IMG/VR virus record: IMGVR_UViG_3300031227_000566
Coordinates: 1 to 20,074 of that record
DNA length: 20,074 bases
Origin: a virus
Direction: 5' to 3' (one strand)
Part shown: piece after piece, positions 1-19,820 of the stretch
How positions within the stretch are numbered: the stretch's first letter is position 1
How the letters are laid out: the number at the start of each line of letters is the position of its first letter
Made by a program: the position numbers and the translations under genes
Notes under the pieces: generated by a model
Seen by the model: the letters and a program-made list of their open reading frames with translations, nothing else
Databases searched by the model: none
Told to the model about the DNA's origin: nothing

Positions 1-1216
1 TGTTTAAGATTGGTGGTAGACTTCGATTTTTCATTTTTTTTTGTGTGAGCGGTGCTGGTGGGGTGCTAATTGTTAACATCGTGATCCAGAGGAACAGGAC
101 TGCCGGGGAGCGGAACGGGCAGTCGAACGTCGAGTGGATAAATACCAGGGTAAGTCCGATTGCGATCGCGATCGATGCGTGGTTTCTCCACGCGGTGCGA
201 ATCAATATTACCAGTGTTCCGGCCAGGCAGGCGGTTCCGATTAGGCCGAACTCGGCCAAGAACTGGACCGGGTCGCAATGATTGTTCGGAGCGGCGGCGA
301 GGAGCGCCTGCTGATCCATCGTCGCAACCAGGCTCGGGAAATATCTGCAACCCCATCCGCCGGTTCCGAAGATTGGGAATTGTTGCCAGACTTTAAAATT
401 GACGATGATCTGCCACCAGCGATCCGCGAGAGCGTAACTAATTGTTTTATCGCTCAGCCAGAGTCCAGTTGCCCCGCCCAGCGCGCCGGCCAAACAACAA
501 AAAATGATGACCAGTTTTTTTGATTTTATTTTTATTAGCATGGGGAGCGAAACCAGTATGAGCCCAGGAATGAGCAGCATTATCGTGGTTGCGTTGCAGC
601 CTGCCAACCAGACAGCCCAGGCGAACAGCGCGGCCAGCACGAGCTGACGCCGGGACATTGCCAGGCAAAACAACAGAAAAAAGTAATCACCCGCTGAATT
701 CTCGTATTGAAACGTGGCGAAAAATCGTTTACTGAATGGAATGAACCAGAACATTGCATGCGCCTTGCACAGCTCTTGAATGATGCCCACAACGGCCAGT
801 GCAGCGCCGTTAATCAGAACTACCCGGATCAACCTGGATGGATTAATGTAGGCGTGCCTGACGGCCAGGATGATGGCGAACGCGGGGAGGAACCAGGCTA
901 TCATTTCCCACGCTTCCCAGCCGACTACGGAAAACGGGATACACGTCGGAATGTCGCGGCCCAGCCAAACTCGGCCGTCCGGATCCGCTGAGCTGTAAAG
1001 TCCGGCGTTGATCCACTGCAATAATAGCAGAGTTAAAAACACTGCTGCGAGATAGAAAACAGGATCGCGCAGTAATTCCGCGCGCCGCCCTCGATCCCGC
1101 AACAACATTATCAGCATGATCACGGCCAGGCCGACGACCGGAAATAACAGCGCCGGCACATGTCCGGCGAACGCCCAGGAGGTATATCCTATTATAAGGT
1201 ATAGGCAAGTTTCCAT
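1..1216 (-). CDS. O-antigen ligase/polymerase (Wzy_C) family membrane protein, partial at window edge
   Basis: The frame is open from an ATG at 1216 to base 1 with no stop (405 codons seen), so the C-terminus is missing. A strong Shine-Dalgarno (GGAGGAA) lies in the last codons of the upstream gene, whose stop is one base before this ATG, so translation is probably coupled. The protein has many hydrophobic segments. Its second half carries the Wzy_C signature: FATFQYENSAGDYF (the usual F-x-N-x-N-x-A-x-Y pattern), IFGTGGWGCRYF (usual G-x-G-x-G-x-F), and NNHCDPVQFLAEFGLIG (usual HN-x-Y-L-x-x-x-E-x-G-x-x-G). Family members polymerise O-antigen units or ligate glycan to lipid A on the periplasmic face of the inner membrane; which activity applies here cannot be read. 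Its place at the end of a phage early operon suggests lysogenic conversion of the cell surface. It could instead be another Wzy_C glycan ligase. Confidence 0.8.
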   Translation of the reverse strand, partial: METCLYLIIGYTSWAFAGHVPALLFPVVGLAVIMLIMLLRDRGRRAELLRDPVFYLAAVFLTLLLLQWINAGLYSSADPDGRVWLGRDIPTCIPFSVVGWEAWEMIAWFLPAFAIILAVRHAYINPSRLIRVVLINGAALAVVGIIQELCKAHAMFWFIPFSKRFFATFQYENSAGDYFFLLFCLAMSRRQLVLAALFAWAVWLAGCNATTIMLLIPGLILVSLPMLIKIKSKKLVIIFCCLAGALGGATGLWLSDKTISYALADRWWQIIVNFKVWQQFPIFGTGGWGCRYFPSLVATMDQQALLAAAPNNHCDPVQFLAEFGLIGTACLAGTLVILIRTAWRNHASIAIAIGLTLVFIHSTFDCPFRSPAVLFLWITMLTISTPPAPLTQKKMKNRSLPPILN

Positions 1217-1217
1217 C

Positions 1218-1406
1218 TTATATTTCCTCCGTAAACATACAGCGCGTTGCTTGCGAGACAACGCGAGCGTAGAGTCCGGGATGATCGCGCCGCATCTGTT
1301 GGTTAATCGTTATTTTACTGCCGTCAGCGAAAAAAAAAGTTTGGGTTCTTGCATCATTGCATGGTAGTGCAATAACGGAATTAGGTACGCCATTTTTTTG
1401 TTTCAT
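1218..1406 (-). CDS. Small hypothetical protein, 62 aa
   Basis: I do not recognise this protein. It starts in an ATGA overlap with the stop of the TSCPD gene, and its final codons (ACG GAG GAA ATA TAA) form the ribosome binding site for the O-antigen ligase-like gene. The middle contains a short TFFFADGSKITINQQ stretch that looks like two beta strands. There is no signal peptide or membrane segment. Its tight packing between two better supported genes is the main argument that it is real; it may partly act as a translational coupler. Confidence 0.6.
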   Translation of the reverse strand: MKQKNGVPNSVIALPCNDARTQTFFFADGSKITINQQMRRDHPGLYARVVSQATRCMFTEEI

Positions 1407-1816
1407 ATTTTTTTCTCTCCTTTTTTGTTAAAATAATGATCCATCCAGCGGATTACATAATCTACTATACTTTTGGCGGTTCTGATTTCCGGGTTGTCTG
1501 TAAAGCCGGACGGCTCGAATAACTGGAACGAGAATTTCTCGACCAGTTTTGAAAGAGGGACGCCCTCGCGGAGGCAGAGCGATATTGCAAGCGCCCATGA
1601 TTTTGCAAAACCGTCTATTACGCTCCCGCTCCGGTCCATGTGCAGGAACAGCTCCGCCGGGCTGCCGTCCTCGAACAGTCCCACCGTGAAAAAAAACTTA
1701 ATGCGCGAATCCGATGTTTCCGCACCGCAGGCCAGGCAGGTTGTCGGCGCGCACCGGATCACAGCCTTGTGTGTTATAGATAATCGATCAGGGTTGAGTT
1801 TTTTCATTTGTTTCAT
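1403..1816 (-). CDS. TSCPD-domain protein resembling the C-terminal domain of B12-dependent ribonucleotide reductase
   Basis: This 137-aa protein has a short N-terminal cysteine cluster (C22, C27, C30). From about residue 40 it fits the TSCPD pattern of class II ribonucleotide reductase C-termini: KFFFTVGLFEDGSPAELFL, then GS near 64-65, a helix ending SLCLREGVPL, and a terminal SIVDYVIRWMDHYF helix. The catalytic barrel of the reductase is absent, so it cannot reduce nucleotides alone. It may regulate or replace part of a host reductase, or be a domain reused for another task. The start at 1816 overlaps the preceding gene by 29 bases; an alternative ATG at 1807 gives MKKLNPD and reduces the overlap. 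The stop is shared in an ATGA with the next gene. The family call is by eye. Confidence 0.7.
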   Translation of the reverse strand: MKQMKKLNPDRLSITHKAVIRCAPTTCLACGAETSDSRIKFFFTVGLFEDGSPAELFLHMDRSGSVIDGFAKSWALAISLCLREGVPLSKLVEKFSFQLFEPSGFTDNPEIRTAKSIVDYVIRWMDHYFNKKGEKKI

Positions 1817-2177
1817 TCTTTACAAATCCCAGGGAGGGATGATTCTTCAATTCTTCGTGGTCTTTATAGCCCGATTCCATCTCGTTAAGTAACCTGTTCC
1901 ACCTTTTGATTAGTGGTTGGTTTTTACGTGGGTTTTTTACGTTGGCTACTCTCGGCTTCAGGGTTTTATAACTTTTTTGCAACCGAGAAAATCGATTTAC
2001 GAGATGAATAAACGAATGCACAATTAAGATTGTGTATATCGTGTGTGATCTGAATCCTGTTGTTAATTCTGCAAGCACATCAACAAGCGCCTGTTTCGGC
2101 ATTTGATTAATGATTCGTTCTCTTTCTTTTTGAGTTAGGTTTGATATTGTGTCGGGGTATTTTTTTGGAGTATCCAT
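1788..2177 (-). CDS. Hypothetical protein, 129 aa
   Basis: No family is recognised. The start is supported by a GAGGA motif six bases upstream, which overlaps the end of the preceding gene (gap of one base). The N-terminal half includes a helical, fairly hydrophobic stretch (SHTIYTILIVHSFIHLVNRF, about residues 44-63). It is not long or uniform enough to be called a membrane segment with confidence. The C-terminal half is basic and rich in Lys, Asn and Arg, suggesting nucleic acid or protein contact. Composition is more A+T-rich than the transposase genes upstream. It sits mid-operon. Confidence 0.6.
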   Translation of the reverse strand: MDTPKKYPDTISNLTQKERERIINQMPKQALVDVLAELTTGFRSHTIYTILIVHSFIHLVNRFSRLQKSYKTLKPRVANVKNPRKNQPLIKRWNRLLNEMESGYKDHEELKNHPSLGFVKNETNEKTQP

Positions 2178-2178: not shown

Positions 2179-2475
2179 TTACATCCTCATTCCCGGAACG
2201 CCGAAGGCCCTGATCCATTGCTCTTCGGTCACTGGCTCGACATTTACAATTTCAGTTGCGAGGGTTTTCAGCATGCCTTTTCGCCTGGCGGTGATTTCTG
2301 TCAGCCCACACCAGTGGAATTTTTTTTCTTTACCGTACATGAATTTAACGGTGACTTCATAACCGAATGATTTGTATTTTCGCGCCGGTGAATATTTATT
2401 GCAGCGCGGCTTTTTGCCTTGTGCGCAGACTTCACCGCCACATCTTCCTTTAGCAAACTCTATGCATTGGATCAT
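2179..2475 (-). CDS. Small cysteine-containing protein, 98 aa, possible zinc knuckle
   Basis: Four cysteines near the N-terminus (C4, C12, C17, C25) are spaced C-x7-C-x4-C-x7-C, compatible with one bound metal ion, and are followed by a basic, beta-rich middle (YEVTVKFMYGKEKKFHWCG). The spacing recalls CCCH zinc fingers, but the last ligand is Cys rather than His. The C-terminal part, VTEEQWIRAFG, looks like an amphipathic helix. The start has an AAGGAAG ribosome site placed over the stop of the preceding gene. I infer an RNA-, DNA- or protein-binding accessory role; no specific function can be read. Confidence 0.65.
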   Translation of the reverse strand: MIQCIEFAKGRCGGEVCAQGKKPRCNKYSPARKYKSFGYEVTVKFMYGKEKKFHWCGLTEITARRKGMLKTLATEIVNVEPVTEEQWIRAFGVPGMRM

Positions 2476-2478: not shown

Positions 2479-3054
2479 TCACTTCCTTTCTGTGTTTTCC
2501 TTGTTCGGTTTATGAGTTTCGCACAGATATTTTCCCTTTCTGATCGCGGTGTGCACCCGCGTAACGTGATCCTCGATGGCGGCTATCTCAGGTGGTATCC
2601 AGATTGAGAAGGTCTCATCTCCGCAGACATCGCACGGAAACGGCCCGTCAGCCTCTCCGATTTCAAACCGAACAAGGCGGTGGAGCATACTGCCATCTTG
2701 CGCGTTTTTATTTTTGACAACCTCTATGACTTTCGTTTCCGTGCGAGTTTTTCGCATGCAGACTGAGCACCAGTCTGTTATAATGCGCGTCGGCCAAGGT
2801 AGATTTGCCTCTATTACCATTCGGTGTCTTTCTCCGCATTCCTGGCATGTTTCGACCGTATGCCGGCGCGCCATAAAAAACGCAACGTCTGTAGATCCCT
2901 CCCTTAGTGTAAACTTCCTTTTGTAGTTGTTGTTTTTACAATTCAGCAACATCTCGCGCCATTTAACGCAGGGCGCACAATCCCTGAAAACCTCACAATA
3001 ATTCTTTTCGCATCTTGATAGATGTAAAATTAAAGAGTTGTTTTTTGTTTTCAT
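2479..3054 (-). CDS. Zinc-ribbon-like cysteine-rich protein, 191 aa
   Basis: The protein contains several CxxC pairs: CAPC in the N-terminal third, CQECGERH and CSVC in the middle, and CDVCGDE followed by a late C-x-x-H (CETH). These fit two or more zinc ribbons, of the kind phages often use in small nucleic-acid-binding or host-takeover proteins. It has no enzyme motif that I recognise, no signal peptide and no membrane segment. It lies between a winged-helix-like protein upstream (gap of three bases) and another cysteine protein downstream (gap of three bases), all in one operon. The ribosome site is weak, so coupling to the upstream gene is likely. Confidence 0.7.
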   Translation of the reverse strand: MKTKNNSLILHLSRCEKNYCEVFRDCAPCVKWREMLLNCKNNNYKRKFTLREGSTDVAFFMARRHTVETCQECGERHRMVIEANLPWPTRIITDWCSVCMRKTRTETKVIEVVKNKNAQDGSMLHRLVRFEIGEADGPFPCDVCGDETFSIWIPPEIAAIEDHVTRVHTAIRKGKYLCETHKPNKENTERK

Positions 3055-3057: not shown

Positions 3058-3405
3058 TCAAAACCCGAGCAGGATTTGGTTTGAATCGCGCTCGGTGGTT
3101 ATTGTTTTTAATTTTTTAACTAACGAATGGCGCTTGAATTCCAGGCGGCGGACTCGGATGAGCTCTGCTATTCCGTGCCGCCGCAGGCGGTGCTTGAATT
3201 GGAGCCATTCTTTTTTTGATGCGCACTCAACGTGCAAAAAACCTTTGTCTCCCGAAATAGCGAAATCACTGCACAGGCCGGGGCGCTTCCCGATCGCGCG
3301 GAGCGCGCGGGTGTCCGGCACGGCGAACTTGGCACAGATATCCTGGGAGGACACCCATGTGCCGTGTTCGAGCAGATATTTTTCTATTTCAGTTTCGAGG
3401 CTCAT
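3058..3405 (-). CDS. Winged-helix-like DNA-binding protein, 115 aa
   Basis: I chose the start at 3405 (MSLETEIEKYLLEHG) because it forms a TAATG overlap with the stop of the polymerase X-like gene; the longer upstream reading is only a shadow of that gene. Residues 1-65 have the layout of a winged helix: helix EIEKYLLEHG, then SSQDICAKF as helix 2, DTRALRAIGKR as recognition helix, and a strand-rich wing (FAISGDKGFLHVE). The C-terminal 50 residues are very basic (HRLRRHGIAELIRVRRLEFKRH). It may be a local regulator or a small replication accessory factor. The family is not recognised by name. Confidence 0.7.
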   Translation of the reverse strand: MSLETEIEKYLLEHGTWVSSQDICAKFAVPDTRALRAIGKRPGLCSDFAISGDKGFLHVECASKKEWLQFKHRLRRHGIAELIRVRRLEFKRHSLVKKLKTITTERDSNQILLGF

Positions 3406-3896
3406 TACATGTTTCTTTTGCCGGGTTCCGTCCAGGGGACGCCAGCGATTTCGAAAACATCTGCTTCGTTCGGAGTCGGCACCAGGAAGCCGCGCGGATC
3501 GCAGAGCATGCCGCATACGCTGTGGTATCCGCGCGCTGACCAGCCTGCCGCGAGAACGTGATGTCCAAACTCGGCGCTGCCGGTCCGGATTGCGAGGATC
3601 AATCCCCAGTTATCCTCCCGTGCGAAAAACAGATCCAGATCAATGCCCTGGGGTAGCTTGCGCCTGGTGTATTTGCCGGGCAGATACCCGCGCACCCGTT
3701 CCCATTGTTCCACCACCCCGGCAATCCCGGACTCGAACAGCCCGACCCCATAGGGTTTAGGTATGGCGACTATCTCTATATCGTTCACTTCCGGCCGCCC
3801 TCGCCGGATACTGCCGGCGATTTCGATTTTGATGCAATGGGGTTTGAGTTGCAGTTTAACTAATTCCGCTATCGGGTACGCTTTGTCGAGTTTCAT
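3405..3896 (-). CDS. Minimal DNA polymerase X-type nucleotidyltransferase, 163 aa
   Basis: The palm of family X polymerases is visible. GSIRRG (28-33) matches the GSxRRG substrate loop, NDIEIV supplies the first acidic pair (D39, E41, where Asp is usual at both), and GIDLDLFF supplies the third acid (D86 or D88). RTGS (104-107) matches the YTGS motif near the nucleotide site, and the C-terminal ADVFEIAGVPWTEPGKRN matches the family's F-x-x-L-G-x-x-x-x-x-P-x-x-R ending. The 8-kDa lyase domain and most of the fingers are missing, so it is about half the usual length. It may fill gaps left by transposition or add nucleotides to ends; that is inference. The first 41 bases overlap the preceding gene, and an AAAGG ribosome site supports the start. 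Confidence 0.78.
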   Translation of the reverse strand: MKLDKAYPIAELVKLQLKPHCIKIEIAGSIRRGRPEVNDIEIVAIPKPYGVGLFESGIAGVVEQWERVRGYLPGKYTRRKLPQGIDLDLFFAREDNWGLILAIRTGSAEFGHHVLAAGWSARGYHSVCGMLCDPRGFLVPTPNEADVFEIAGVPWTEPGKRNM

Positions 3897-4338
3897 AAAC
3901 CACCGCCTTTCGTTTTATGTGGCGGTCGATGGCGATCCATACGCGCCACATTTGTTTTGCCGGGAGATCCTGCCACTCGGGCCGGAACCCCATGTTTGCG
4001 CAGATCCCGTTGACGTATCTCTCGTCAATGTCTGCCGTAGCCATTGCCCGGGTGATTATGTGCCTGATCCTGACCTCGTCTCCCACCGCCGCGCGTAATT
4101 GCCAGTAATCCGCACCGTCGTTGATCAACTCCTCTATGCGGCCCATGAGTACGTCGTAATCCCGGCCCTTGTTAGCCTGTTTTGTTGTGTAAATTCCGAG
4201 CGTGTCCATGAGCAATGCGCGATACCATTGCTGATACGCGCCCTGCTGGTTCGGTGCAAGCCCGGACCGCGCGCAATGCGCGAGCCAGGCGTGCTTGAGT
4301 AGCGGCCGGTAATATTTCTGCTGGGCGGGCGAAAACAT
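3856..4338 (-). CDS. Phage early protein, possibly GemA/gp16-like (DUF1018), 160 aa
   Basis: The protein is mostly helical. It starts SPAQQKYYRPLLKHAWLAHC and ends with a region (YVNGICANMGFRPEWQDLPAKQMWRVWIAIDRHIKRK) that resembles the C-terminus of Mu gp16/GemA proteins, where a similar helix precedes a short Arg/Lys tail. Its place two genes after the MuB homologue also fits Mu order. GemA modulates gyrase and early gene expression in Mu. The resemblance is weak, so the name is tentative. The start is well supported by GGAGGTGTGAT directly upstream, inside the previous stop region. Its last 41 bases overlap the next gene. Confidence 0.6.
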   Translation of the reverse strand: MFSPAQQKYYRPLLKHAWLAHCARSGLAPNQQGAYQQWYRALLMDTLGIYTTKQANKGRDYDVLMGRIEELINDGADYWQLRAAVGDEVRIRHIITRAMATADIDERYVNGICANMGFRPEWQDLPAKQMWRVWIAIDRHIKRKAVVYETRQSVPDSGIS

Positions 4339-4339: not shown

Positions 4340-4798
4340 TCACACCTCCGGGTTGTCCTTTGTTTCGAACGCTACGCGCGGGTTTGCCTTTGACTCGCAG
4401 AGTTTTATGAGCTTGCTGGCGTCGCACCCGAGCGTCGGATTTATGTTTTTCAAAAGCGTGCGGAAATCAGGCGCGAGCTTATATTTTGGCTCGTATTTAA
4501 ACAGCGTTGCAAGCGCGTTTCCGGCCGCTTTCCGGATAGCTGCAAACGTTTTGCTTTTCCCGTCAAGAGAGTCTTTCAGCGTCTTTCCCGGAAACGTTAC
4601 GCGCACAATATTGCCGTTATTGCCATCGTGAGTCCACGACGTGCCGCCGCCGTCGGTTTTAACGTGCTTAGTCTTGTGTTTCTTCGCCTCGGCAATGAGC
4701 GTTTTCTTCGTCGTTTTCAGGCGCTCTTTGCGATCCGCGATTTCGCGGTCTAGCGCGATCGCCAGATCAACCAGCGTTTTGAGTTGTTCTGTTTTCAT
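4340..4798 (-). CDS. Basic helical phage protein, 152 aa, unknown
   Basis: The gene begins in an ATGA overlap with the stop of the MuB-like gene and has an AAAGGGA ribosome site. The first 45 residues form a charged helix, likely a coiled coil (LAIALDREIADRKERLKTTKK). A glycine-rich middle follows (DGGGTSWTHDGNNGN) with a strand (IVRVTFPGK), and then a basic helical C-terminus. The position after MuB is where Mu carries kil and later gam, and a coiled-coil DNA-end-binding role would fit. I cannot align it with Gam, so no function is assigned. Confidence 0.65.
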   Translation of the reverse strand: MKTEQLKTLVDLAIALDREIADRKERLKTTKKTLIAEAKKHKTKHVKTDGGGTSWTHDGNNGNIVRVTFPGKTLKDSLDGKSKTFAAIRKAAGNALATLFKYEPKYKLAPDFRTLLKNINPTLGCDASKLIKLCESKANPRVAFETKDNPEV

Positions 4799-5844
4799 AC
4801 CGCATCCCTTTCGCTTAATTTTGCAAACGCATCATGCGCGTGGACAAAATGTTTCCAATCCAATTTGGTTTTTGTCTTGTTGCTGTATCTGCTTGCCGCC
4901 TGGAGAAATTTCACGAATTTACCGAGGCCGCTCTCGTGGATAATAGTTTTCATCAATTCCCGCGCCTCGCCCTCCGCCGGCGGCAGACCGAACGCCTTAG
5001 CTACCGCGTCCAGATCGCGCACTGGCGGCCTACGCGGGAGCTGCAACTGCACTATCCCGCGCCGCTGCAACTGGTCCAGCATCTCCTTATCTTTACCGCG
5101 TTGGATCTCCTCCCGGAAAACGTTGGTGCCGCAGAGCACCATCCCGCAATGCGTCCGGTCGTGTATCTCGCGCAGCAGTTCCAGGCAAGTCACCCGCGCT
5201 TGCTTATGATACGAGAGCATTGCCTGGTGTATCTCATCCACAATCACCAGCGTGTTTTTGTCGAGATGATTGAGGACAGTGTCTCGTAATTTCTCGAAAC
5301 TACAGTTCGGGCTCAGGTTACATGATCGCGCCAGCGTTTTCATCATGAGCTGGACGCCGGCAGTCGCCGGCATCCGGAAAAATTTTGTCTGGCCGTGATT
5401 GTTTCTTTTCGCGTACACCTCTAACGCCGTTGTTTTCCCGATTTGGGAATCGCCGAAAATAAACACGATGGAATTAGAAACCAGCGCCCATTCGCACACC
5501 TGCCATATTTTTTTCGCGATAGACGTCTCCACAAAATCAGAGGTATCCATCAACGCGCGCTCGATAGCCACCGATTTAAATTCCTGAATATCGCGCACCA
5601 CCTTATCAAGCCCGGCCGCATACTGGTTCCGAAACATCCGGTGCAGCGTTGAACCGTCTCTGTGTATACACGCTGCCATATCCTTTAAAGAGAGCCCCTC
5701 GTTGCGCATATAATGGAAAGCCCATCTGATCGCCTCGCGCTGATCCTCCGGCAGGGCCGACGTGGCCTCATGCACTGTTGTAGCGCTGACTGTGTGCCCC
5801 TTTTTATCTCCGCGCACCGCTATACTGTTGTTTTGATCTACCAT
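4795..5844 (-). CDS. MuB-like transposition ATPase (AAA+ target-DNA activator), 349 aa
   Basis: Walker A is GDSQIGKTT (131-139), Walker B is LVIVDEIHQ (199-207) and a sensor-like CGTN lies at 238-241. The first 80 residues form a helical DNA-binding domain (HYMRNEGLSLKDMAACIHRDGSTLHRMF). Length and layout match Mu B (312 aa) and related ATPases. These proteins bind target DNA, deliver it to the transposase and give target immunity. It is 25 bases downstream of the transposase with an AAGGAAGGG ribosome site, the usual A-B order. The C-terminal 90 residues are basic and helical, like the MuB C-terminal domain. Confidence 0.9.
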   Translation of the reverse strand: MVDQNNSIAVRGDKKGHTVSATTVHEATSALPEDQREAIRWAFHYMRNEGLSLKDMAACIHRDGSTLHRMFRNQYAAGLDKVVRDIQEFKSVAIERALMDTSDFVETSIAKKIWQVCEWALVSNSIVFIFGDSQIGKTTALEVYAKRNNHGQTKFFRMPATAGVQLMMKTLARSCNLSPNCSFEKLRDTVLNHLDKNTLVIVDEIHQAMLSYHKQARVTCLELLREIHDRTHCGMVLCGTNVFREEIQRGKDKEMLDQLQRRGIVQLQLPRRPPVRDLDAVAKAFGLPPAEGEARELMKTIIHESGLGKFVKFLQAASRYSNKTKTKLDWKHFVHAHDAFAKLSERDAV

Positions 5845-5869: not shown

Positions 5870-7894
5870 TTATAGAAACGCCGTTATATCCCCCGCGTCA
5901 TCATCCTCCTCATCCGCCCCCACGCATACCGGTTCCGGGATAAAATCCTCAACCGATCCAGTATTCCGCGCCAGCCTCTGTTTCGTGTTTCGTTGCACCT
6001 CCTTTTCCTCTTTTGTCATCGGTTTGTCCGCCAGCACACCCGCATTCCATTTCGCGTCGGCAATGCGCCGCCGCGTAATATCCCCGCCGCGCCTGGCGAC
6101 CGGGGCCAACAGTGTCGCCTCCAGTTTTGCGGCCTGTCCCATCCGCCTATGCAACGCGTCAACATCATCTCGCCTGATCTTGGTCCACGGCGCACACGCG
6201 CCGACATAGGCCCCGCGTGCGTCGCACACATGGAGCTGCGCCGGATCGAACGGGTTGATATACGTCAGATAAGTTTCACCTTCCTTCAAAAGCTGAGGCA
6301 CCCTGTATTGCGTCTGCACCTGCGCCAGATACCGATGCGTGCCCGGCCCGACCTCGCGGTCCTGGAACTCGAACATGCTTCCCTCCACGCGCCGCTCGAC
6401 AGCCAGCTCCTGTCCCAGGAGTATCGGTATAACGCAACCCTGGAGCTTGGTGAGCGACCGCGAGCCGCGATCCCACACCTCGCGCGGACTGAGTTTGCGG
6501 ATCTGCGTGAGTGCCGACGCCGAATTGATCAGCACCTCCACCGTAGCCCTCTCGCCCTCCGGCAACGCCATGTAACGTTCGACCGGCATCCATGGCATAT
6601 CGCGATTCACTCGCCACTCCTTCGCGATCAGCCCGGCCTGCTCCCAGCCTTCCAGATCATGTTTCGTCCGCCTATTAATTTGCTCATATATCTCCGCACA
6701 CAAACCCTGAAACTCGCCCATCTCCAAAAACGGCGCGCGCAGCAACTCGCGCCGCTCCGGCGGCATTGCAACCAACGCCTGGAGCAACGCCTCGTTATGT
6801 TTGTCGCGGCCATAGAGTTCCTCCGGCGAATGATTTCGGTCCATGCCCAACTGTCCCGTCAGAGCAGCCAGCTCGTTATGCGCCAGCGCGTGAATACTCT
6901 CCAGCGCAGCCTTTAAACGGAAATTACCTTTTTTTCTCCCGCGATACTGTCCTGCAAACGCCGGGGCCCCCTCGATTCCGCTTCGGTTAACCGTCACCGC
7001 GCCGCCCGTGCAATCCGCCAGGATTTTTTCTATATTCGTGCGGACCGCCGCAGTACCATGCTCGACAACCAGCGTAGTTCCCTCCGCCCGATAGCCGAAT
7101 TTGGTCAACACATACGCCAGCAAGAATAGCATCTCGCGATCTTTCAATTTTTCCTTTTTCTCCTTTACCTCGTTCCAGATCATCGGTTTCATGCCATACG
7201 CAAATTTGCAGGCTGAGAACACATCGAGCGCCGCCAGCTCCAGCGGGCGCAGTGCCTTCATGTTTACCCCGAGCATATTAACCTTGTGGTCATGCTCCAC
7301 ATCATCGAACATGTAGAACTGCCCCACCTCCAGTCCAACGCGCGTGGTATAGACAAGCGGCCTATGCGCTGCCGCAGCGCTCCGTCCGATCCTCGCCGCC
7401 GTCAGCTCGTATTTAGTTGGCGCATGCCGCATTAGATTAGCGTATCCCCAGCCCGGCGGGATTCCATCCGGCCCAGCCGTCGGCGACTCATCGTAGCCAG
7501 GGATTGGCAACCCCGCCCGCCAGTCAGCAATTAACCGCCGATGTGCCGGTTTACATTTGCGTTGATTCCGCTCGCACAGTCCGCGCCAGTGCTCGATGAA
7601 CTCATCCGGCAGGCCCTTCGCCGAGCCGGAAAGCTTTGCTCCATTCACCAGTCCACGCCAACCGCCCCGCCGCACCGCGCGCCATTTGCGCGCGATATTA
7701 ACCGCCGAGAACCCTCGCCGATGCACCATGCGCTGCGCCTGCTGCGCAATCACCTCCGTGAGAGCACATCCCTCCGCGACCGACGCGTTGACCACGCGCA
7801 ACACATCAATCCACACCGCAACATCGCTCTTAACCGCATCGGGAAGGGCGGCATAACTGATCATATCGTTTTGGGGGATTGTTAATTCTGTCAT
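5870..7894 (-). CDS. MuA-like DDE transposase, 674 aa
   Basis: Length and layout match Mu A (663 aa). An N-terminal helical DNA-binding region (about 40-130) is followed by an RNase H-fold core starting at YMFDDVEHDHKV (D197/D198), with LDVFSACKFAYG as the next strand. The strand TTLVVEHGTAAV places Glu278 where the family usually has Asp, and E332 in LKAALESIHALAHN is the likely third acid. The 278-332 spacing is close to the Mu D336-E392 spacing. A beta-barrel-like region and a charged C-terminal tail for MuB contact follow. It catalyses strand cleavage and transfer for integration and replicative transposition. The start overlaps the previous stop as TAATG. The catalytic residue assignment is by eye. 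Confidence 0.9.
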   Translation of the reverse strand: MTELTIPQNDMISYAALPDAVKSDVAVWIDVLRVVNASVAEGCALTEVIAQQAQRMVHRRGFSAVNIARKWRAVRRGGWRGLVNGAKLSGSAKGLPDEFIEHWRGLCERNQRKCKPAHRRLIADWRAGLPIPGYDESPTAGPDGIPPGWGYANLMRHAPTKYELTAARIGRSAAAAHRPLVYTTRVGLEVGQFYMFDDVEHDHKVNMLGVNMKALRPLELAALDVFSACKFAYGMKPMIWNEVKEKKEKLKDREMLFLLAYVLTKFGYRAEGTTLVVEHGTAAVRTNIEKILADCTGGAVTVNRSGIEGAPAFAGQYRGRKKGNFRLKAALESIHALAHNELAALTGQLGMDRNHSPEELYGRDKHNEALLQALVAMPPERRELLRAPFLEMGEFQGLCAEIYEQINRRTKHDLEGWEQAGLIAKEWRVNRDMPWMPVERYMALPEGERATVEVLINSASALTQIRKLSPREVWDRGSRSLTKLQGCVIPILLGQELAVERRVEGSMFEFQDREVGPGTHRYLAQVQTQYRVPQLLKEGETYLTYINPFDPAQLHVCDARGAYVGACAPWTKIRRDDVDALHRRMGQAAKLEATLLAPVARRGGDITRRRIADAKWNAGVLADKPMTKEEKEVQRNTKQRLARNTGSVEDFIPEPVCVGADEEDDDAGDITAFL

Positions 7895-8571
7895 TACGCC
7901 AGCGCCTTTCTTATCTCCCGTTTTAGATCCGTGAGTAAACCGTCGATCAGCTGAATCTGGACTTTAGGAAGATACGCCCAGGTCTTTTTCTCAAGTCCGG
8001 CCTTATGCATATTCTCCATCAGCACGCGCCACTCAGCCTCTGCGTTGATGCGTTTCAATTCCTCTGTCGTTTCTGTCTTCCCGTTCTTTGCGGGATGATG
8101 CCCGCCCAACGGCAACCCCTGCCGGATCCCGTAACGCCGAAAAACATCGTTCAGAGATCCCTCCCCAAGAAAATCGAACGCAAGCTGTGTTATTTTTTTT
8201 GCCTTTGGATCTTCGTCTTTCTCCGGCGCACAGAGAAGGAACGCCGCGCCGCCCTTTAATTTTTTTCTCCTTATAAAGGCTTCCGCGAGTTGCCGGAAAT
8301 TGTACGCCTGAGTGCGTCTGATATCTTTAATGTTTTCCGCTACCCATTTATCAAACTCGCCATGCGGTAACATCTCTTTTATCCGGATCAGATTTGTTCC
8401 GATTCTAAGCGCCCGGAACGCGGCTTGATTTTCGAGTTTTCCAAACTCCTGAAAATCTTCATCTATTTGCTGTGCAATAAATAATAAATGTTCACTGCGG
8501 TGAACATTTGCCTCTTTTTCAGGCATAACTTCCGGCGTTAAAGTCTCGATTTTTTTAATTGATTTTGACAT
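7894..8571 (-). CDS. DUF3102-like phage protein, 225 aa
   Basis: The central part (about 45-95) reads AFRALRIGTNLIRIKEMLPHGEFDKWVAENI followed by RRTQAYNFRQLAEAF. This is the DUF3102 pattern found in phage and plasmid proteins: A-x-x-x-G-x-x-L-x-x-x-K-x-x-L-x-H-G-x-F-x-x-W, then a helix that reads like an HTH. The rest is charged and helical. A DNA-binding or regulatory role is usual guesswork for the family. An AAGGA ribosome site supports the start. A perfect 10-bp inverted repeat sits inside the early codons (8486-8509), so the gene may be regulated at its own 5' end. It ends in a TAATG overlap with the transposase. Confidence 0.75.
   Translation of the reverse strand: MSKSIKKIETLTPEVMPEKEANVHRSEHLLFIAQQIDEDFQEFGKLENQAAFRALRIGTNLIRIKEMLPHGEFDKWVAENIKDIRRTQAYNFRQLAEAFIRRKKLKGGAAFLLCAPEKDEDPKAKKITQLAFDFLGEGSLNDVFRRYGIRQGLPLGGHHPAKNGKTETTEELKRINAEAEWRVLMENMHKAGLEKKTWAYLPKVQIQLIDGLLTDLKREIRKALA
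8486..8509. promoter_or_regulatory. Perfect 10-bp inverted repeat with 4-base spacer inside the DUF3102-like gene
   Basis: The arms AAATGTTCAC and GTGAACATTT pair perfectly around TGCG. The element lies about 20 codons into the DUF3102-like gene and a little over 590 bases before the transposase start. It could be an operator for a dimeric repressor, or an RNA hairpin that pauses translation or transcription ahead of the transposase. I found no second full copy in the window. Confidence 0.5.
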
Positions 8572-8801: not shown

Positions 8802-9110
8802 TTACGCCGACATTTTTTCTTTGAGTTCGCAGTCTTCCGGTACCGACCTCTGCCAGCCGATCACGTCCGGCAGGTTCGGGACGCTGATCGTCGCCGCCAC
8901 GGCGGCGGCCTGGAACTCCATAACCTCTCCGCGTATTTTCTCCAACCGCGCCGCGTCGCGCGCATGCATTGAGTTCCGCCAGGTAGATTCCTCTCTGATT
9001 GTTCGCGCCGCCTCGTCTATGAGTTTCCCCGCCTCGCGGATCATCCGCGCCGCCGCCACGAGCTGCGCCCCCGCTGTCCTGATCCTGTTATCAATCACAC
9101 ATGCGCTCAT
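8802..9110 (-). CDS. Helical hypothetical protein, 102 aa
   Basis: The protein is helical in its first 75 residues (AGAQLVAAARMIREAGKLIDEAARTIREES), with a repeating pattern of small and charged residues that suggests a coiled coil, then a short polar tail. No family is recognised. Its ribosome site (AAGGAAGGAG) and first codons (ATGAGCG) are part of the 68-bp sequence that is repeated near 9583-9650. The start is therefore firm, but the leader is shared with another copy. It also overlaps the stop of the minus ORF upstream as ATGA. Confidence 0.65.
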   Translation of the reverse strand: MSACVIDNRIRTAGAQLVAAARMIREAGKLIDEAARTIREESTWRNSMHARDAARLEKIRGEVMEFQAAAVAATISVPNLPDVIGWQRSVPEDCELKEKMSA

Positions 9111-9171
9111 AATGACTCCTTCCTTTTTTCTTGCTTTTTCGCGTTTGATTTTTTACTCTGCCCGGATGAAA
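9104..9171. repeat. 68-bp duplicated leader, copy 1
   Basis: This segment is 64/68 identical to 9583-9650, and the two starts are 479 bases apart. On the minus strand it holds the ribosome site and start of the 8802-9110 gene. On the plus strand it ends at the ATG (9166) of a rightward ORF. TTGCTT and TACTCT, 17 bases apart and preserved in both copies, could be a weak plus-strand promoter whose transcript would start at about that ATG. Confidence 0.85.
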
Positions 9172-9589
9172 ATTTCCGACCTGGCAAACGAGATTTCGCG
9201 CCGGACAAATCCGGGTGAGCCTTACAATGAAATGGACATTTCCCGCTTAGAGCTAATCGACATTGAAGCGCTTCTTCTGGAAACGGAAGTTGCGACTCAA
9301 GGCACGCTCGACACTCTGCTCGCGGCATCTTGTTCCGGCGAAAAAACTCATCACGCTCTGACACGCGCCGAGAGCTGGTTCCTTTCCCAGCGCTGGGAAT
9401 GCGCCGCTGATTTTTTGGCGCGCTTAGCATCATCCCAATCTGAGCAAGATTTTCCACTCTCGCTTTCCTCCGATAATGACCGCCTGATTTATCACTGGCT
9501 TCTGATTGACGTGTGGCGCGAGTGGCGCGGTTATTGGCTCCACAACACCGCCCGCCGTCTTTTTCGTGAACAACATTCCTGACGCTCAT
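9107..9589 (-). CDS. Doubtful minus-strand ORF, 160 aa, antisense to a rightward ORF
   Basis: This ORF keeps the operon chain intact: ATGA overlaps at both ends and an AAAGGAG ribosome site from the duplicated leader. Against it, the interior is low in hydrophobic residues, rich in Arg, Ser and Cys, and looks like the shadow of the plus ORF 9166-9582. Its C-terminal tail (SSGQSKKSN-KKQEKRKESL, one residue varying) recurs in the next minus ORF because both are written by the 68-bp repeat. Several differences between repeat copies are silent in this frame, for example AGG versus CGA for Arg. The tail may therefore be under selection even if the body is not. A real fused or degenerate gene remains possible. 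Confidence 0.3.
   Translation of the reverse strand: MSVRNVVHEKDGGRCCGANNRATRATRQSEASDKSGGHYRRKARVENLAQIGMMLSAPKNQRRIPSAGKGTSSRRVSERDEFFRRNKMPRAECRACLESQLPFPEEALQCRLALSGKCPFHCKAHPDLSGAKSRLPGRKFSSGQSKKSNAKKQEKRKESL
9166..9582 (+). CDS. Rightward ORF A, acidic 138-aa protein inside the leftward operon
   Basis: The product reads like a folded protein: acidic N-terminal helices (SDLANEISRR, LELIDIEALLLETEV), then a tryptophan-rich helical half (ESWFLSQRWECAADFLARL, YHWLLIDVWREWRGYW). It has no known family to me, no signal peptide and no Shine-Dalgarno at its ATG, so it would be leaderless or weakly translated. The frame is also open from an ATG at 9112, which would add MTPSFFLAFSRLIFYSAR from the repeat. 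It ends one base before the second leader copy. Residues around LID...ET-EVATQGTLDTLLAA align loosely with ORF B, suggesting diverged paralogues. The opposite-strand ORF competes with this call. Confidence 0.5.
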   Translation: MKISDLANEISRRTNPGEPYNEMDISRLELIDIEALLLETEVATQGTLDTLLAASCSGEKTHHALTRAESWFLSQRWECAADFLARLASSQSEQDFPLSLSSDNDRLIYHWLLIDVWREWRGYWLHNTARRLFREQHS

Positions 9590-9650
9590 AATGACTCCTT
9601 TCGTTTTTCTTGCTTTTTCCCGTTTGATTTTTTACTCTGTCCGGATGAAA
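9583..9650. repeat. 68-bp duplicated leader, copy 2
   Basis: This is the second copy of the leader at 9104-9171, differing at four positions. It again carries a minus-strand ribosome site plus ATGAGCG, and ends on the plus strand at the ATG (9645) of rightward ORF B. The block between the two copies is ORF A. Confidence 0.85.
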
Positions 9651-10128
9651 TCTTCCTGGTCTGATTTAATGGACGAATTATTTGACGCATTAAGCGTAGT
9701 CCCGAAGACAGAATATTCGCCGCCATATTTTTCGTTCGACGAAAAACTGATTGATGAACTCCGCTCGGACGAATTGAAATATCGGGAATCTGTTGATTCC
9801 CTATGCATAGCCTTCGCTCGATTCGGAATGCCGAAACTTGATGTTCCGGCAGAAAGATACTATTTTTCAATGCGGATTTGTTATGGTCACAAAATATGTA
9901 TGCCGCTGACAATTCCTCTCCGGTATCAACATAAACGCACGGATGAGCATTTCCCTTTCTTCGCAGCCAAGCCTGATATACTTGACTGGCTTCTCGTTCG
10001 TACATGGCCCGGCGTATCTCTCGAGCCCTTTTTGCAATCGGAGCAAGCAGTTGCTCTGAAATCTCCTGAGTCCTTTCCATGTGCCGACGCATTTCTGTGC
10101 CAGCATCGAATGAATTAACCTCCCTCAT
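9586..10128 (-). CDS. Hypothetical protein, 180 aa, with likely genuine N-terminal half
   Basis: The first 70 or so residues (EMRRHMERTQEISEQLLAPIAKRAREIRRAMYEREASQVYQAWLRRKG) form a credible charged helix. The start has an AAAGGA ribosome site and an ATGA overlap with the HTH gene upstream. The second half loses protein-like character where it runs antisense to ORF B and ends in the repeat-encoded tail SSGQSKKSNGKKQEKRKESL. My reading is an early-operon gene whose 3' part was replaced or overrun when the leader plus rightward ORF unit was inserted. The full 180-aa frame may still be translated. No family is recognised. Confidence 0.45.
   Translation of the reverse strand: MREVNSFDAGTEMRRHMERTQEISEQLLAPIAKRAREIRRAMYEREASQVYQAWLRRKGNAHPCVYVDTGEELSAAYIFCDHNKSALKNSIFLPEHQVSAFRIERRLCIGNQQIPDISIRPSGVHQSVFRRTKNMAANILSSGLRLMRQIIRPLNQTRKISSGQSKKSNGKKQEKRKESL
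9645..10118 (+). CDS. Rightward ORF B, 157 aa, possible diverged paralogue of ORF A
   Basis: About the first 90 residues look like a real acidic protein (SDLMDELFDALSVVP, FSFDEKLIDELRSDELKYRE, DSLCIAFARFGMPKLD). The remainder overlaps the better half of the opposite gene and looks less natural, so the true end may be shorter or the gene may be decaying. As with ORF A it lacks a Shine-Dalgarno, begins right after the 68-bp leader, and has an in-frame upstream ATG at 9591. SDL-x-x-E near the start and LID...DELKYRESVDSL match ORF A in order. The function is unknown. Confidence 0.4.
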   Translation: MKSSWSDLMDELFDALSVVPKTEYSPPYFSFDEKLIDELRSDELKYRESVDSLCIAFARFGMPKLDVPAERYYFSMRICYGHKICMPLTIPLRYQHKRTDEHFPFFAAKPDILDWLLVRTWPGVSLEPFLQSEQAVALKSPESFPCADAFLCQHRMN

Positions 10129-10355
10129 CTGAATTTCCTTTCTACCTGGTTGAATGAATCCCGCTCCTCGAAGAACGCCATTAACGACTCTCTGTATATC
10201 CTCCAGCGCGGCTGATCAGCCGCGCTTGTGTTTACTGCGCGGAGTTCTCCGCTTTCGATTTGCCGCCGGATAGAACGCTCCGATGTATCCAGCAGCTTCG
10301 CAACCTCATCTACGCGAAGCAGGTTTTTTTCCGGCACTGCCACGGTTTGGGTCAT
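10125..10355 (-). CDS. Excisionase/MerR-type helix-turn-helix protein, 76 aa
   Basis: The core LLRVDEVAKLLDTSERSIRRQIESGELRAVN is the classic HTH_17 pattern: VAKLLDTSERSIRRQI as the HTH and GELRAV as the wing start. PRWRIYRESLMAFF then closes the winged helix. Such small proteins act as excisionases or as Ner/Cro-like early regulators. As the second gene of the leftward operon, in the place of Mu ner, it may control the divergent promoters; that is inference. The ribosome site (GGAGGGAAAGG region) is strong. Its stop overlaps the next start as ATGA. Confidence 0.8.
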   Translation of the reverse strand: MTQTVAVPEKNLLRVDEVAKLLDTSERSIRRQIESGELRAVNTSAADQPRWRIYRESLMAFFEERDSFNQVERKFR

Positions 10356-10904: not shown

Positions 10905-11615
10905 GTGAAAAATGAAAAACTAATTTCTGAAATCAACGGAGGTGTGTCATGTAACAATCACAATACTCCCCACACGCCACAGAGCGCAGTTTCTGAACTC
11001 CTGCGCTCCGGCGGTGCCAGGCGATTCCTTTCCGCCTGCGCCGCCACTCCCGGCGGCAGTGCGCGTTTCCTGTCCGCCGCTGCCGCCATCTTTTTTCACC
11101 TGAACCCATACGCAGATCCAATGCGTCGCGGACCCGGCGGCGGCAGATGGCTATTTCCTTCCGCCACTGCCGCCGTTCTTTTTTTGCTTGCGGCTCGCGG
11201 GGACGCTCGCCCTCCAGAAATGTTTTTTGCGGATGGAATAGTTGCGGCGCAGATGCTGCCCGATCCCTCCGCGCTGGGAAGCTGGATTCTTGCCGCCGGA
11301 ATCATCATCACCGCAGCCGCTGCTCTGGTCCTGATTTTCCGGCGCACCCCCCCGATAGAGTCCGAATTTGCAACTAAGGCCGAGCTGGACGCAGTCCGCT
11401 CCTCGCTCGACACACGCTTCTCGAATCTCGACAAGCGCCTCGAAAATATGCAGCAGGAATTCACCCGCTCCGCAAATTACAACGCACGCGCCGAAGAAAG
11501 CCGCGCCGGAAAAATCCATAACCGCGTCGACCTGATCCTTGGCGCGGTAAGCGATCTCAACGGAACAATTCGAAACCTGCCATGCCTGAAAGGGGGCAAA
11601 TGTGAACAATCTTGA
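10905..11615 (+). CDS. Membrane-anchored coiled-coil protein in the place of Mu gp25 (DUF2730-like), N-terminus repeat-derived
   Basis: The C-terminal 120 residues are credible: a membrane helix (SWILAAGIIITAAAALVLIF), then a coiled coil (FATKAELDAVRSSLDTRFSNLDKRLENMQQEF) and a short tail. That layout and the position two genes before the small terminase match the DUF2730 proteins of Mu-like phages; a holin role is an alternative. The first 115 residues are mostly written by repeats: three 36-bp palindromic units giving GGARRFLSACAA-like peptides, and a 27-bp unit giving ARGDARPP. The listed start is a GTG without a ribosome site. In-frame ATGs at 11121, 11220 and 11253 are alternatives, and 11220 would drop all the repeats. 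Confidence 0.6.
   Translation: MKNEKLISEINGGVSCNNHNTPHTPQSAVSELLRSGGARRFLSACAATPGGSARFLSAAAAIFFHLNPYADPMRRGPGGGRWLFPSATAAVLFLLAARGDARPPEMFFADGIVAAQMLPDPSALGSWILAAGIIITAAAALVLIFRRTPPIESEFATKAELDAVRSSLDTRFSNLDKRLENMQQEFTRSANYNARAEESRAGKIHNRVDLILGAVSDLNGTIRNLPCLKGGKCEQS
11010..11045 (+). repeat. 36-bp palindromic repeat, unit A
   Basis: This is the first of three 36-base units with the form GGCGG-x(26)-CCGCC. Its ends pair over eight positions with one G-T pair. It shares TTCCTTTCCGCC with the other units and encodes GGARRFLSACAA in the reading frame of the first late gene. Confidence 0.75.
11052..11087 (+). repeat. 36-bp palindromic repeat, unit B
   Basis: The ends GGCGGCAG and CTGCCGCC pair perfectly over 8 bp around a 20-base loop. 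The unit has the same length and frame as unit A and encodes GGSARFLSAAAA. Confidence 0.75.
11139..11174 (+). repeat. 36-bp palindromic repeat, unit C
   Basis: The ends GGCGGCAG and CTGCCGCC pair perfectly, and the loop keeps the TTCC-x-TCCGCC core. It lies 51 bases after unit B and encodes GGRWLFPSATAA. It is followed 16 bases later by the 27-bp repeat at 11191. Confidence 0.75.
11191..11217 (+). repeat. 27-bp repeat encoding ARGDARPP, copy 1
   Basis: This segment is identical over 27 bases to 18810-18836 and is read in the same frame in both places (ARGDARPP). The reverse strand reads WRASVPASR. The core contains two direct GCTCGC words around GGGGAC. Confidence 0.9.
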
Positions 11616-11870: not shown

Positions 11871-12401
11871 ATGAAAAAACCACGGTCAGACAGCAAACTT
11901 ATGAACATTGACGACGACCAGAGAGAACAGCTCATCAACTGGATGCTCTCCGGCCTGCCATATCACAAAATCAAAACCATGCTCAAGGATCAGTTCACGA
12001 TATCAACATCATTCGGTGCGCTATCGAATTTCTACGAAAAAATCGTTACTCCCGCGCTGATAGCCAGGCGTCAGCGCGCCGTTACTACGGCCGATCAGAT
12101 AGCACGGGAGGCGAGCCAAACGCCTGGCAAATTTGACGCCGCCACGATCGACGCACTAAAACAGCGCGCACTCGAAATGAGCATTTCGCCCGGCGTGGAG
12201 CCGCGTGATGTTAAGCAGATTTTTTCGCTTGTCCTGAAGGCGCGCGACCAAGACCTCGCCGAGCGCCAGCTCGAACAGAAAATCCGCGAGTACGAACAGA
12301 AAATAACCGCTACCCGCGACGCCATGACCCGCGCAGTCGCTAAGGGCGGCATCACGAAAAAGACCCTCGGAGAAATCGAAAGGGCAATGAATTTACTATG
12401 A
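11871..12401 (+). CDS. Small terminase subunit (Mu gp27-like, DUF3486 type), 176 aa
   Basis: I start this gene at 11871 (MKKPRSDSK), two bases after the upstream stop; the longer frame to 11820 overlaps that gene without reason. The N-terminus contains an HTH-like segment (LINWMLSGLPYHKIKTMLKDQF), a helical middle follows (RRQRAVTTADQIAREA), and a long coiled coil ends the protein (ARDQDLAERQLEQKIREYEQKI). This matches the DUF3486 packaging proteins in size and shape. The small subunit recognises DNA for packaging and recruits the large one. The next gene overlaps it as ATGA. Confidence 0.8.
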   Translation: MKKPRSDSKLMNIDDDQREQLINWMLSGLPYHKIKTMLKDQFTISTSFGALSNFYEKIVTPALIARRQRAVTTADQIAREASQTPGKFDAATIDALKQRALEMSISPGVEPRDVKQIFSLVLKARDQDLAERQLEQKIREYEQKITATRDAMTRAVAKGGITKKTLGEIERAMNLL

Positions 12402-13801
12402 GCGAAACCTCAAAAAAAGAGACCCGTTTCCTGCCGTATCAGGCACGCTGGATCACCGATACTGCGCGGCTGAAACTGATGGAAAAAAGCCGTCAGATCG
12501 GCCTTTCATGGGCCACAGCTTACTCCATTGTCCGGCGCAAAGCGCAGGTCGATGCCGCGCTCGATGCGTGGGTTTCGAGTCGCGACGATATCCAGGCAAG
12601 ACTGTTTTTGGAGGATTGCAAAAGCTTTGCCGGGATCATGCATGCCGGCGCGCAGGATCTCGGCGAAGTCGTTATGGACCCGGAGAAAAAAATCAGTGCG
12701 TATGTGATGAGCTTCGCGAACGGGTTGCGGATACATTCGATGAGCTCCAATCCGGATGCGCAGGCAGGAAAACGCGGCGACCGCGTGCTCGATGAATTCG
12801 CCCTCAACCCCGACTCCCGCAAGCTCTACGCCATCGCATATCCCGGCATCACCTGGGGCGGCCAATTAGAGATTGTCTCAACGCATCGCGGCAGTAATTC
12901 CCTCTTCAACGAACTTGTCAACGAGATCAAACACAAAGGCAATCCAAAGGGTTTTTCGCTCCACACAGTGACCCTGCAAGACGCTCTCGACCAGGGTTTT
13001 CTTGACAAGCTCAAAGCCAAACTCCCGCAGGACGACGAACGCCAGGCGATGGACGTGGCCGAGTATTTTGATTTCATCCGCGCCGGATGTCCGGACGACG
13101 AAACGTTCCAGCAGGAATATATGTGCAACCCGTCGGACGATAATGGCGCGTTTTTGTCCTACGACCTCATCTCATCCTGCGAGTATAAGCACGGCGATAT
13201 ATGGGAGCAGCCGATCAATCCTGCCGGCGAATATTATCTTGGTGTTGACGTTGGCCGCTCTCACGATCTGACAGTGCTCTGGCTAGTTGAAAAGCTCGGC
13301 GGCGTATATCACACCCGGCGGTTAATCTCGCTGTTCAATACTCCGTTCGCCGCTCAGGAAACAGAACTTTACACGCTTTTGGAGAACCCCGCAATCCGGC
13401 GCTGCTGCATTGACAACACAGGCATTGGCTTGCAGTTCACCGAGCGCGCACAAAAACTTTTTGGCGAATATCGCGTTGAGGCTGTAACGTTCACCGGCCC
13501 GGTCAAGGAGGCACTAGCGTATCCGCTCCGCGCAGCGTTCGAGGACAAGTCAATCCGGATCCCTAACGATGACAAAATACGCTCAGATTTACGCGCAATC
13601 AAAAAAGAAACCACTGCTGCGGGCAACATACGGTTCACTGCCGATCGCAGCAAAAACGGGCATTCTGACAGGTTCTGGGCGCTTGCGCTGGCGCTGCATG
13701 CCGGTAGCAATCAAGCGGCGGTCGGGAGTTTCCGCAGAGTAAAATCAACGCGCGTCGGACGCGCTGTCCGCTCACGGCGGAGGAGGGCATGCGCCGCATG
13801 A
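12398..13801 (+). CDS. Large terminase subunit (Mu gp28-like), 467 aa
   Basis: The N-terminal ATPase has a variant Walker A, MEKSRQIGLSW (28-38), and Walker B RVLDEFA (129-135, D132 and E133). The C-terminal RNase H-like nuclease shows LGVDVGRSHDLTVLW (D284, D290), CIDNTGIG (D339) and GHSDRFWALALA (D424), the usual three-acid arrangement. Family members pump DNA into the head and cut it; in Mu, cutting is headful into host DNA next to the phage. The last 25 residues are very basic (RAVRSRRRRACAA) and are encoded by a G+C-rich stretch that also supplies the portal ribosome site. Confidence 0.92.
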   Translation: MSETSKKETRFLPYQARWITDTARLKLMEKSRQIGLSWATAYSIVRRKAQVDAALDAWVSSRDDIQARLFLEDCKSFAGIMHAGAQDLGEVVMDPEKKISAYVMSFANGLRIHSMSSNPDAQAGKRGDRVLDEFALNPDSRKLYAIAYPGITWGGQLEIVSTHRGSNSLFNELVNEIKHKGNPKGFSLHTVTLQDALDQGFLDKLKAKLPQDDERQAMDVAEYFDFIRAGCPDDETFQQEYMCNPSDDNGAFLSYDLISSCEYKHGDIWEQPINPAGEYYLGVDVGRSHDLTVLWLVEKLGGVYHTRRLISLFNTPFAAQETELYTLLENPAIRRCCIDNTGIGLQFTERAQKLFGEYRVEAVTFTGPVKEALAYPLRAAFEDKSIRIPNDDKIRSDLRAIKKETTAAGNIRFTADRSKNGHSDRFWALALALHAGSNQAAVGSFRRVKSTRVGRAVRSRRRRACAA

Positions 13802-16336: not shown

Positions 16337-16440
16337 GGGCCTGCTGAGTAACGGCGGAGGACCGCCGTCTCCAGGCAAAACAAATGGACCCGGCGGTCCC
16401 CGCCGGGAAAAGAAAAATGGAGCCGGCCGTCCCCGGCCGG
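16337..16440 (+). repeat. Cluster of three GC-rich hairpin repeats before the decoration gene
   Basis: Three palindromes lie in a row: ACGGCGG-AGGA-CCGCCGT (16351-16368), CCCGGCG-GTCCC-CGCCGGG (16389-16407) and CCGGCC-GTCCCC-GGCCGG (16423-16440). The first 70 bases recur almost unchanged at 16910-16978. The gap ends in a strong GAGGAG ribosome site. They could stabilise or process the mRNA, or be mobile palindromes. None is followed by a T tract, so they are poor intrinsic terminators. Confidence 0.85.
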
Positions 16441-16909: not shown

Positions 16910-16978
16910 GGGCCTGTGAGTAACGGCGGAGGACCGCCGTCTCCAGGTAAAAACAATGGACCCGGCGGTCTCCGCCGG
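16910..16978 (+). repeat. Second copy of the 70-bp double-hairpin repeat
   Basis: The segment repeats 16337-16406 with few changes, keeping both palindromes: ACGGCGG-AGGA-CCGCCGT (16923-16940) and CCGGCGG-TCT-CCGCCGG (16962-16978). It lies between the decoration gene and the capsid gene. A short tandem of AAACAGAAAC (about 16981-17002) and a GAGGAG ribosome site follow. Confidence 0.85.
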
Positions 16979-17019
16979 ACAAACAGAAACAAACAGAAAC
17001 AAACTGAGGAGAAAAAATC

Positions 17020-17966: not shown

Positions 17967-18188
17967 ATGAATGTCATTAAACTTGCGGGCCTGTTGGTGA
18001 TAGCGCTGATAGCGGTGATTATTTTTGCCGGGATCAAAACTGCGGAATGGGCCTGCAAGGGCAATGGCGGGAAAACGGCGGCGGACCGCCGTCTCCAAAA
18101 AATGAATCGGGCAAACGACGGAGGAACGGCCATAGGCCGTCAGGCCTTTGTCTCCAAAATAAAAATGATGATAACGAGGAGAAAATAA
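17967..18188 (+). CDS. Small single-span membrane protein with repeat-derived tail, 73 aa
   Basis: An AAGGA site eight bases upstream and an N-terminal hydrophobic helix (LAGLLVIALIAVIIFAGI, about residues 6-23) make this a plausible membrane protein, perhaps a holin-like or exclusion protein. The remaining 45 residues are written by two palindromic repeats (TAADRRLQK and GGTAIGRQAFVSK) and look incidental, so the original gene was probably shorter. Its stop overlaps the next start as TAATG, in the ribosome site of that gene. Confidence 0.55.
   Translation: MNVIKLAGLLVIALIAVIIFAGIKTAEWACKGNGGKTAADRRLQKMNRANDGGTAIGRQAFVSKIKMMITRRK
18075..18157 (+). repeat. Two hairpin repeats inside and after the small membrane gene
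   Basis: ACGGCGG-CGGA-CCGCCGT (18075-18092) is the same 7/4/7 palindrome as at 16351 and 16923, again followed by CTCCA. A related unit, ACGGCC-ATA-GGCCGT (18126-18140), follows and also ends in TTTGTCTCCA. Both lie within the coding frame of the membrane protein and just before the secreted-protein gene. Confidence 0.8.
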
Positions 18189-18643: not shown

Positions 18644-18910
18644 ATGAAAAAAACAATTACAATACCAGCGGGCGAATCGATGATCGGGTTGCAGGGCATG
18701 CGTGCAAGTGTGCGCGGCGGCAAGGCGGTTCTGGATCCGGACGGCGATTATCAGATCGTCCAGGGCGCGGGCGTTGGGGTGAATGTGGTGTTGGCAGGGG
18801 GAGCTGATACGGCTCGCGGGGACGCTCGCCCTCCAGTGGAATCGAAAACAGTGGAATCGAAAACAGTGGGATCGAAAAAAGCGGCGGATGAGAAACAGGG
18901 GGATGAATGA
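18644..18910 (+). CDS. Small hypothetical protein with inserted repeat peptide, 88 aa
   Basis: The first 55 residues look like a compact beta protein (MKKTITIPAGESMIGLQGMRASVRGGKAVLDPDGDYQIVQ), perhaps a small virion or linker protein. The frame then passes through the 27-bp repeat (ARGDARPP), a 15-bp tandem repeat read as three SKTVE-like units, and a charged tail. The tail is likely disordered and tolerated. The ribosome site is GGGAGCG. Its stop overlaps the next start as ATGA. No family is recognised. Position suggests the Mu gp35 slot, but I cannot show homology. Confidence 0.6.
   Translation: MKKTITIPAGESMIGLQGMRASVRGGKAVLDPDGDYQIVQGAGVGVNVVLAGGADTARGDARPPVESKTVESKTVGSKKAADEKQGDE
18810..18836 (+). 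repeat. 27-bp repeat encoding ARGDARPP, copy 2
   Basis: This copy is identical to 11191-11217 and lies in the same reading frame relative to the repeat, inside an unrelated small protein. It is directly followed by a 15-bp tandem array. Confidence 0.9.
18834..18878 (+). repeat. Tandem 15-bp repeat, three units
   Basis: CAGTGGAATCGAAAA occurs twice and then once with one change (GGATCG). Because the unit is a multiple of three, copy number changes keep the frame of the small protein and vary only the length of its tail. Confidence 0.85.
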
Positions 18911-19808: not shown

Positions 19809-19820
19809 AAACTTATGGAG

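Follow-up and report, generated by a model that had tools for sequence, protein, structure and literature searches.

A putative exopolysaccharide-type Wzy polymerase gene at the distal end of a B3-type Mu-like early operon

The left-edge gene and its phage

The window analysed here is an entire viral contig of 20,074 bp, so that the gene at its left edge, referred to below as wzy, cannot be followed beyond nucleotide 1. Its frame begins with an ATG at position 1216 and runs on the minus strand to nucleotide 2, free of stop codons up to the contig edge. The first-pass annotation had placed an O-antigen ligase/polymerase gene of the Wzy_C type at 1-1216, which is correct for the frame, the gene itself continuing off the contig. 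Since close homologues stop within a few residues of the cut, the protein appears to be nearly complete, and the gene probably overruns the contig by only a few codons. At its other end, the stop codon of the preceding 62-aa ORF lies 1 bp from the wzy start (TAA-G-ATG), a GGAGGA ribosome site stands in front of the ATG, and from MuB to nucleotide 2 all adjacent gene pairs either overlap or are at most 3 bp apart. The one-base coupling and the unbroken leftward operon reaching the transposition genes, both proposed from the first reading, can thus be read directly in the sequence. In codon usage, wzy resembles the core genes of the phage (RSCU r 0.72; GC3 0.63). No promoter-like site was found near its start, and shuffled sequences contain more such sites than this region does. 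The features of the window are collected in Table 1.

Table 1. Position, strand and assignment of the features discussed in the 20,074-bp window.
Feature	Coordinates	Strand	Remark
Wzy_C-family (exopolysaccharide-type) polysaccharide polymerase gene, putative	2..1216	-	405 codons, 3' end cut by contig edge
62-aa soluble ORF (o62), no known family	1218..1406	-	1 bp upstream of wzy
Stand-alone TSCPD domain	1403..1816	-	like C-terminus of class II ribonucleotide reductase NrdJ
129-aa ORF (o129)	1788..2177	-	weak PHROG 5620
98-aa ORF (o98), no assigned function	2179..2475	-	
191-aa Cys-rich ORF (o191), no assigned function	2479..3054	-	
152-aa ORF common to related Mu-like phages	3058..3516	-	last shared gene before accessory block
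Small polymerase-beta-like protein	3405..3896	-	conserved in relatives, 51% in L218
160-aa ORF in GemA position	3856..4338	-	conserved in relatives
152-aa ORF, possibly Gam-like	4340..4798	-	conserved in L218 and L255
MuB-type transposition ATPase	4795..5844	-	
MuA-type transposase	5870..7894	-	
DUF3102 protein	7894..8571	-	adjoins MuA in phage B3 too
HTH_17 DNA-binding protein	10125..10355	-	near start of leftward operon
Large terminase (B3-type)	12398..13801	+	query for finding relatives

MuA (PHROG 310, E 3e-13) and MuB (PHROG 296, E 2e-28) were confirmed in the window together with a Mu portal and the Mu I protein (protease), and the terminase shares 65% identity with its phage B3 counterpart. 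These genes, which stand in B3 order, mark the phage as a B3-type Mu-like phage. As in the window, the leftward early operon of Pseudomonas phage B3 carries the DUF3102 gene, MuA, MuB, small genes and a GemA-position gene toward the left end, with terminase and portal rightward; unlike the window, B3 has GemA and Mor at its left end and no Wzy. In related prophages, MuB is followed by the GemA-position ORF and, in some, by the polymerase-beta-like ORF and the 152-aa ORF, all common to the window, and the leftward operon is often closed by a D12-class DNA methylase. What lies left of the 152-aa ORF in the window, namely o191, o98, o129, TSCPD, o62 and wzy, is specific to it. The TSCPD protein is 54-56% identical to the NrdJ C-terminus of Verrucomicrobiota and may be a domain that was acquired from a host and acts on the enzyme of that host; a stand-alone copy was also found in another phage-like locus (L243).

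Regarding the host, Opitutae, Verrucomicrobia and Lentisphaerae bins head the list of bacterial genomes with terminase relatives, and the nearest MuA copies recovered belong to genomes of the Verrucomicrobiota phylum (51% and 46%). The phage probably infects Verrucomicrobiota-type bacteria. Lentisphaeria were set aside as host class, no MuA having been recovered in a search run without a positive control and Wzy having been seen in 1/198. A 20-nt repeat searched for a host link was uninformative. Single-sequence patterns returned no relatives of TSCPD or MuA from viral contigs, MuA relatives appearing once an alignment was used, and none of the defence-system models run gave a match.

Family and type of the left-edge protein

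Compared directly with the PF04932 (Wzy_C) profile, the phage protein scores 16.5 bits, below the curated cut-off of 31.7, with an E-value of 7e-5 in a one-record search and a match spanning profile positions 4-148 of 149; hmmscan of the same protein returned no family. Taken by itself, this hmmscan is the absence of a Wzy_C hit that the first-pass annotation had named as fatal to its assignment, a verdict that the homologues overturn. Homologues were found in 78 of the 388 Verrucomicrobiota genomes searched (best E 5e-37), the best one in a later search matching at 35% over residues 5-398 (E 4e-42). All 25 homologues scanned match PF04932 (best E 1.5e-18), and four near homologues reach 41-68 bits, above the cut-off. 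The Wzy_C identity is thus recovered through relatives rather than by the plain profile search. In an alignment with 34 homologues, to which its overall identity is about 30%, the phage protein keeps all 14 invariant columns, the H motif included. Of the 43 columns with at least 85% conservation it keeps 36, namely the 14 invariant ones and 22 of the 29 others. It has lost a periplasmic loop of about 20 residues and a conserved Glu, and the arginine of the SRAG motif is replaced, an arginine that two homologues (L169 and L143) lack as well. Its branch in the tree is long (1.98 versus a median of 0.54), which leaves its exact origin within the family unsure; a structure prediction made without an alignment was unusable (pLDDT 47.5). 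On these comparisons, the left-edge protein is a member of the Wzy_C family, and its gene an intact if divergent copy of a bacterial one.

The slot between an exporter and a chain-length kinase is the usual place of Wzy in exopolysaccharide operons. At the chromosomal loci examined, the homologues are found in this position, between a Wza-type exporter (Poly_export/SLBB) or a beta-barrel and a Wzc/Wzz chain-length kinase (Wzz/GNVR/AAA_31), with a Wzx flippase (Polysacc_synt) nearby in some. The nearest relatives at these loci are exopolysaccharide-operon polymerases and not O-antigen polymerases or WaaL ligases, and the initial label of O-antigen ligase/polymerase was refined. Since the homologues neighbour Wza, Wzc and Wzx, "exopolysaccharide-type Wzy" appears to be the better name. 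The chromosomal Verrucomicrobiota proteins from such operons (e.g. G516:C438 and G190:C249) are homologous to the phage protein over nearly the full length and have all invariant residues in common with it. In comparison with them, the phage copy is shorter because of the lost loop, and the phage locus itself holds no Wza, Wzc or Wzx partner.

A different activity could nevertheless be considered, in which the protein would be an O-antigen-ligase-like enzyme or an O-glycosylation ligase transferring a finished glycan to a lipid A, protein or exopolysaccharide acceptor. The Pfam title of the PF04932 family is indeed "O-Antigen ligase", 4 of 26 alignment members match TIGR03097 (exosortase-associated O-glycosylation ligase), one further match each being to a repeat-unit polymerase and to TfpM, and a second multi-pass protein encoded at the G516 locus could be the real Wzy there. 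However, the usual neighbours of the homologues are those expected of a Wzy, and this reading is considered unlikely; ligase and polymerase are not separable from sequence alone. Even less credence is given to the idea that the gene is inactive captured cargo, or a dominant-negative decoy that would block the host Wzy without polymerising. The long branch, the missing loop and Glu and the replaced SRAG arginine would fit either idea, but the intact set of invariant columns, the 405 stop-free codons and the strong ribosome site argue against it. The gene is accordingly best described as a putative exopolysaccharide-type polymerase that is likely functional.

Occurrence among phages and possible role

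Neither exact peptide patterns nor tblastn brought up close relatives of wzy in viral contigs, phage records or the contigs of genomes. No second viral contig carrying the gene emerged beyond one probable chimera (L222), whose positions 1-888 hold part of a gene of this Wzy family followed by a different phage type, and which was for this reason set aside as a second carrier. Among 50 terminase-related viral records, many of them fragments that may miss the relevant end, none gave a Wzy_C match above the cut-off. One sub-threshold match in such a record (L082, G044:C1:9265-9567), where a 134-aa frame scores 15.4 bits, is probably due to chance. In about 20 MuA-bearing viral contigs, the ORFs past MuB, as taken by a simple ORF choice, include no many-span membrane protein, and in 36 MuA-positive genomes the Wzy matches, if any, are on a different contig from MuA or separated from it by 280 kb or more. 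The earlier remark that no Wzy was known from a Mu-like early operon is supported to this extent, no convincing case having been seen beside the transposase in the relatives examined.

This rarity, together with the position of the gene at a contig edge and the chimeric appearance of the other IMG/VR contig with a fragment of the family, would be compatible with wzy being host flank, or the product of a chimeric assembly, rather than phage DNA. Such an origin is nonetheless regarded as quite improbable. The gene shows the one-base coupling and a strong ribosome site, there is no non-coding gap to accommodate MuA sites, the codon usage resembles that of the phage core, and the upstream neighbours are not exopolysaccharide genes, one of them, the stand-alone TSCPD, recurring in another phage-like locus. 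In the same line, no non-coding stretch able to hold a phage end exists within the block from o191 to wzy, so that an end lying between wzy and TSCPD, which had been named initially as a possible objection, is very unlikely. The early operon of phage B3 comes to within 124 bp of its left end, and B3 and the related prophages share this leftward operon with genes almost to the phage end. The ends of Mu-like phages begin with TG, as do the first letters of the contig; this occurs by chance one time in sixteen and was given no weight. Mapping the end of one prophage (G445) by target duplication yielded no credible pair.

Phage-borne Wzy proteins are already known from phage D3, whose Wzy-beta requires Arg254, Arg270, Arg272 and His300 (PMC4815439); it is the Mu-like early-operon setting that is new. 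Like D3 Wzy-beta (386 aa), the phage protein (at least 405 aa) would be a phage-borne membrane polymerase with Wzy_C motifs and of comparable size, and its R266, R291 and H313 seem, by eye, to follow a similar Arg...His order and spacing, although no homology between the two was detected by tblastn or hhalign. In D3, which is not Mu-like, the serotype-converting unit consists of iap, an O-acetylase gene and wzy-beta, thereby including an inhibitor and an acetylase; no Iap-like membrane peptide or acetylase was seen among the window ORFs, the left side lying beyond the contig. In contrast to D3, the wzy of the window lies in the early transposition operon and resembles the Wzy of exopolysaccharide operons. 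Matches to D3 Wzy-beta were obtained in 12 of 50,697 phage records, comprising D3-like phages, a few other Pseudomonas phages and VarioGold (PMC9658991), and none of the 12 was recognised as Mu-like. Among Mu-like phages with surface or virulence cargo, BcepMu has an acyltransferase, and not a polymerase, as its putative conversion gene (cited in PMC2628397).

Taken together, these data favour, with a probability of roughly 0.6, a reading in which a B3-type Mu-like phage took up an exopolysaccharide-type Wzy from a Verrucomicrobiota-like bacterium and has retained it as the distal accessory gene of the leftward early operon, where it would alter the coat against further phages. Translation would start at the strong ribosome site of the gene itself, probably on the transposition-gene transcript, and the product would most likely insert in the inner membrane. 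There it could polymerise or re-link the lipid-linked sugar repeats of the host in competition with the host Wzy, so that an altered capsule or exopolysaccharide would let fewer further phages adsorb, early in infection or in lysogens. It is plausible that the gene would change the surface in this way or exclude superinfecting phages. A changed serotype in lysogens, one of the outcomes suggested at first, may not follow, as an early-operon gene lacking its own promoter could stay silent while the prophage is repressed. A more specific variant, in which the host-derived polymerase is turned on with the transposase and rewires the coat early, and not in a silent lysogen, so as to exclude competitors during transposition, is rather doubtful. 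If the capture reading is true, coat conversion would extend to a Mu-like phage, to exopolysaccharide-type polymerases and to the Verrucomicrobiota group. The phages of this group and their receptors have been little studied, and exopolysaccharide is suggested here as a receptor or barrier for them.

Repeats and tRNA neighbours

Several repeats were observed elsewhere in the window. Dispersed palindromic repeats, GGCGGAGGACCGCCGTC and CCGGCGGTCCCCGCCGG, occupy spacers of the late region just before gene starts (16345-16417, 16917-16989, 18074-18097, 16385-16411 and 19815-19842). An exact 27-nt repeat, which was not found in any other viral contig, lies inside two unrelated ORFs at 11191-11217 and 18810-18836. 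Two 74-nt copies that are 92% identical (9104-9177 and 9583-9656) are located at the ends of neighbouring small ORFs, giving them near-identical C-terminal tails. Finally, a tRNA-Ala gene stands beside 2 of the 10 related prophage regions examined (L213, 7407-7482; L218, 13322-13400), an adjacency that is unexpected for a random inserter and may be due to chance.
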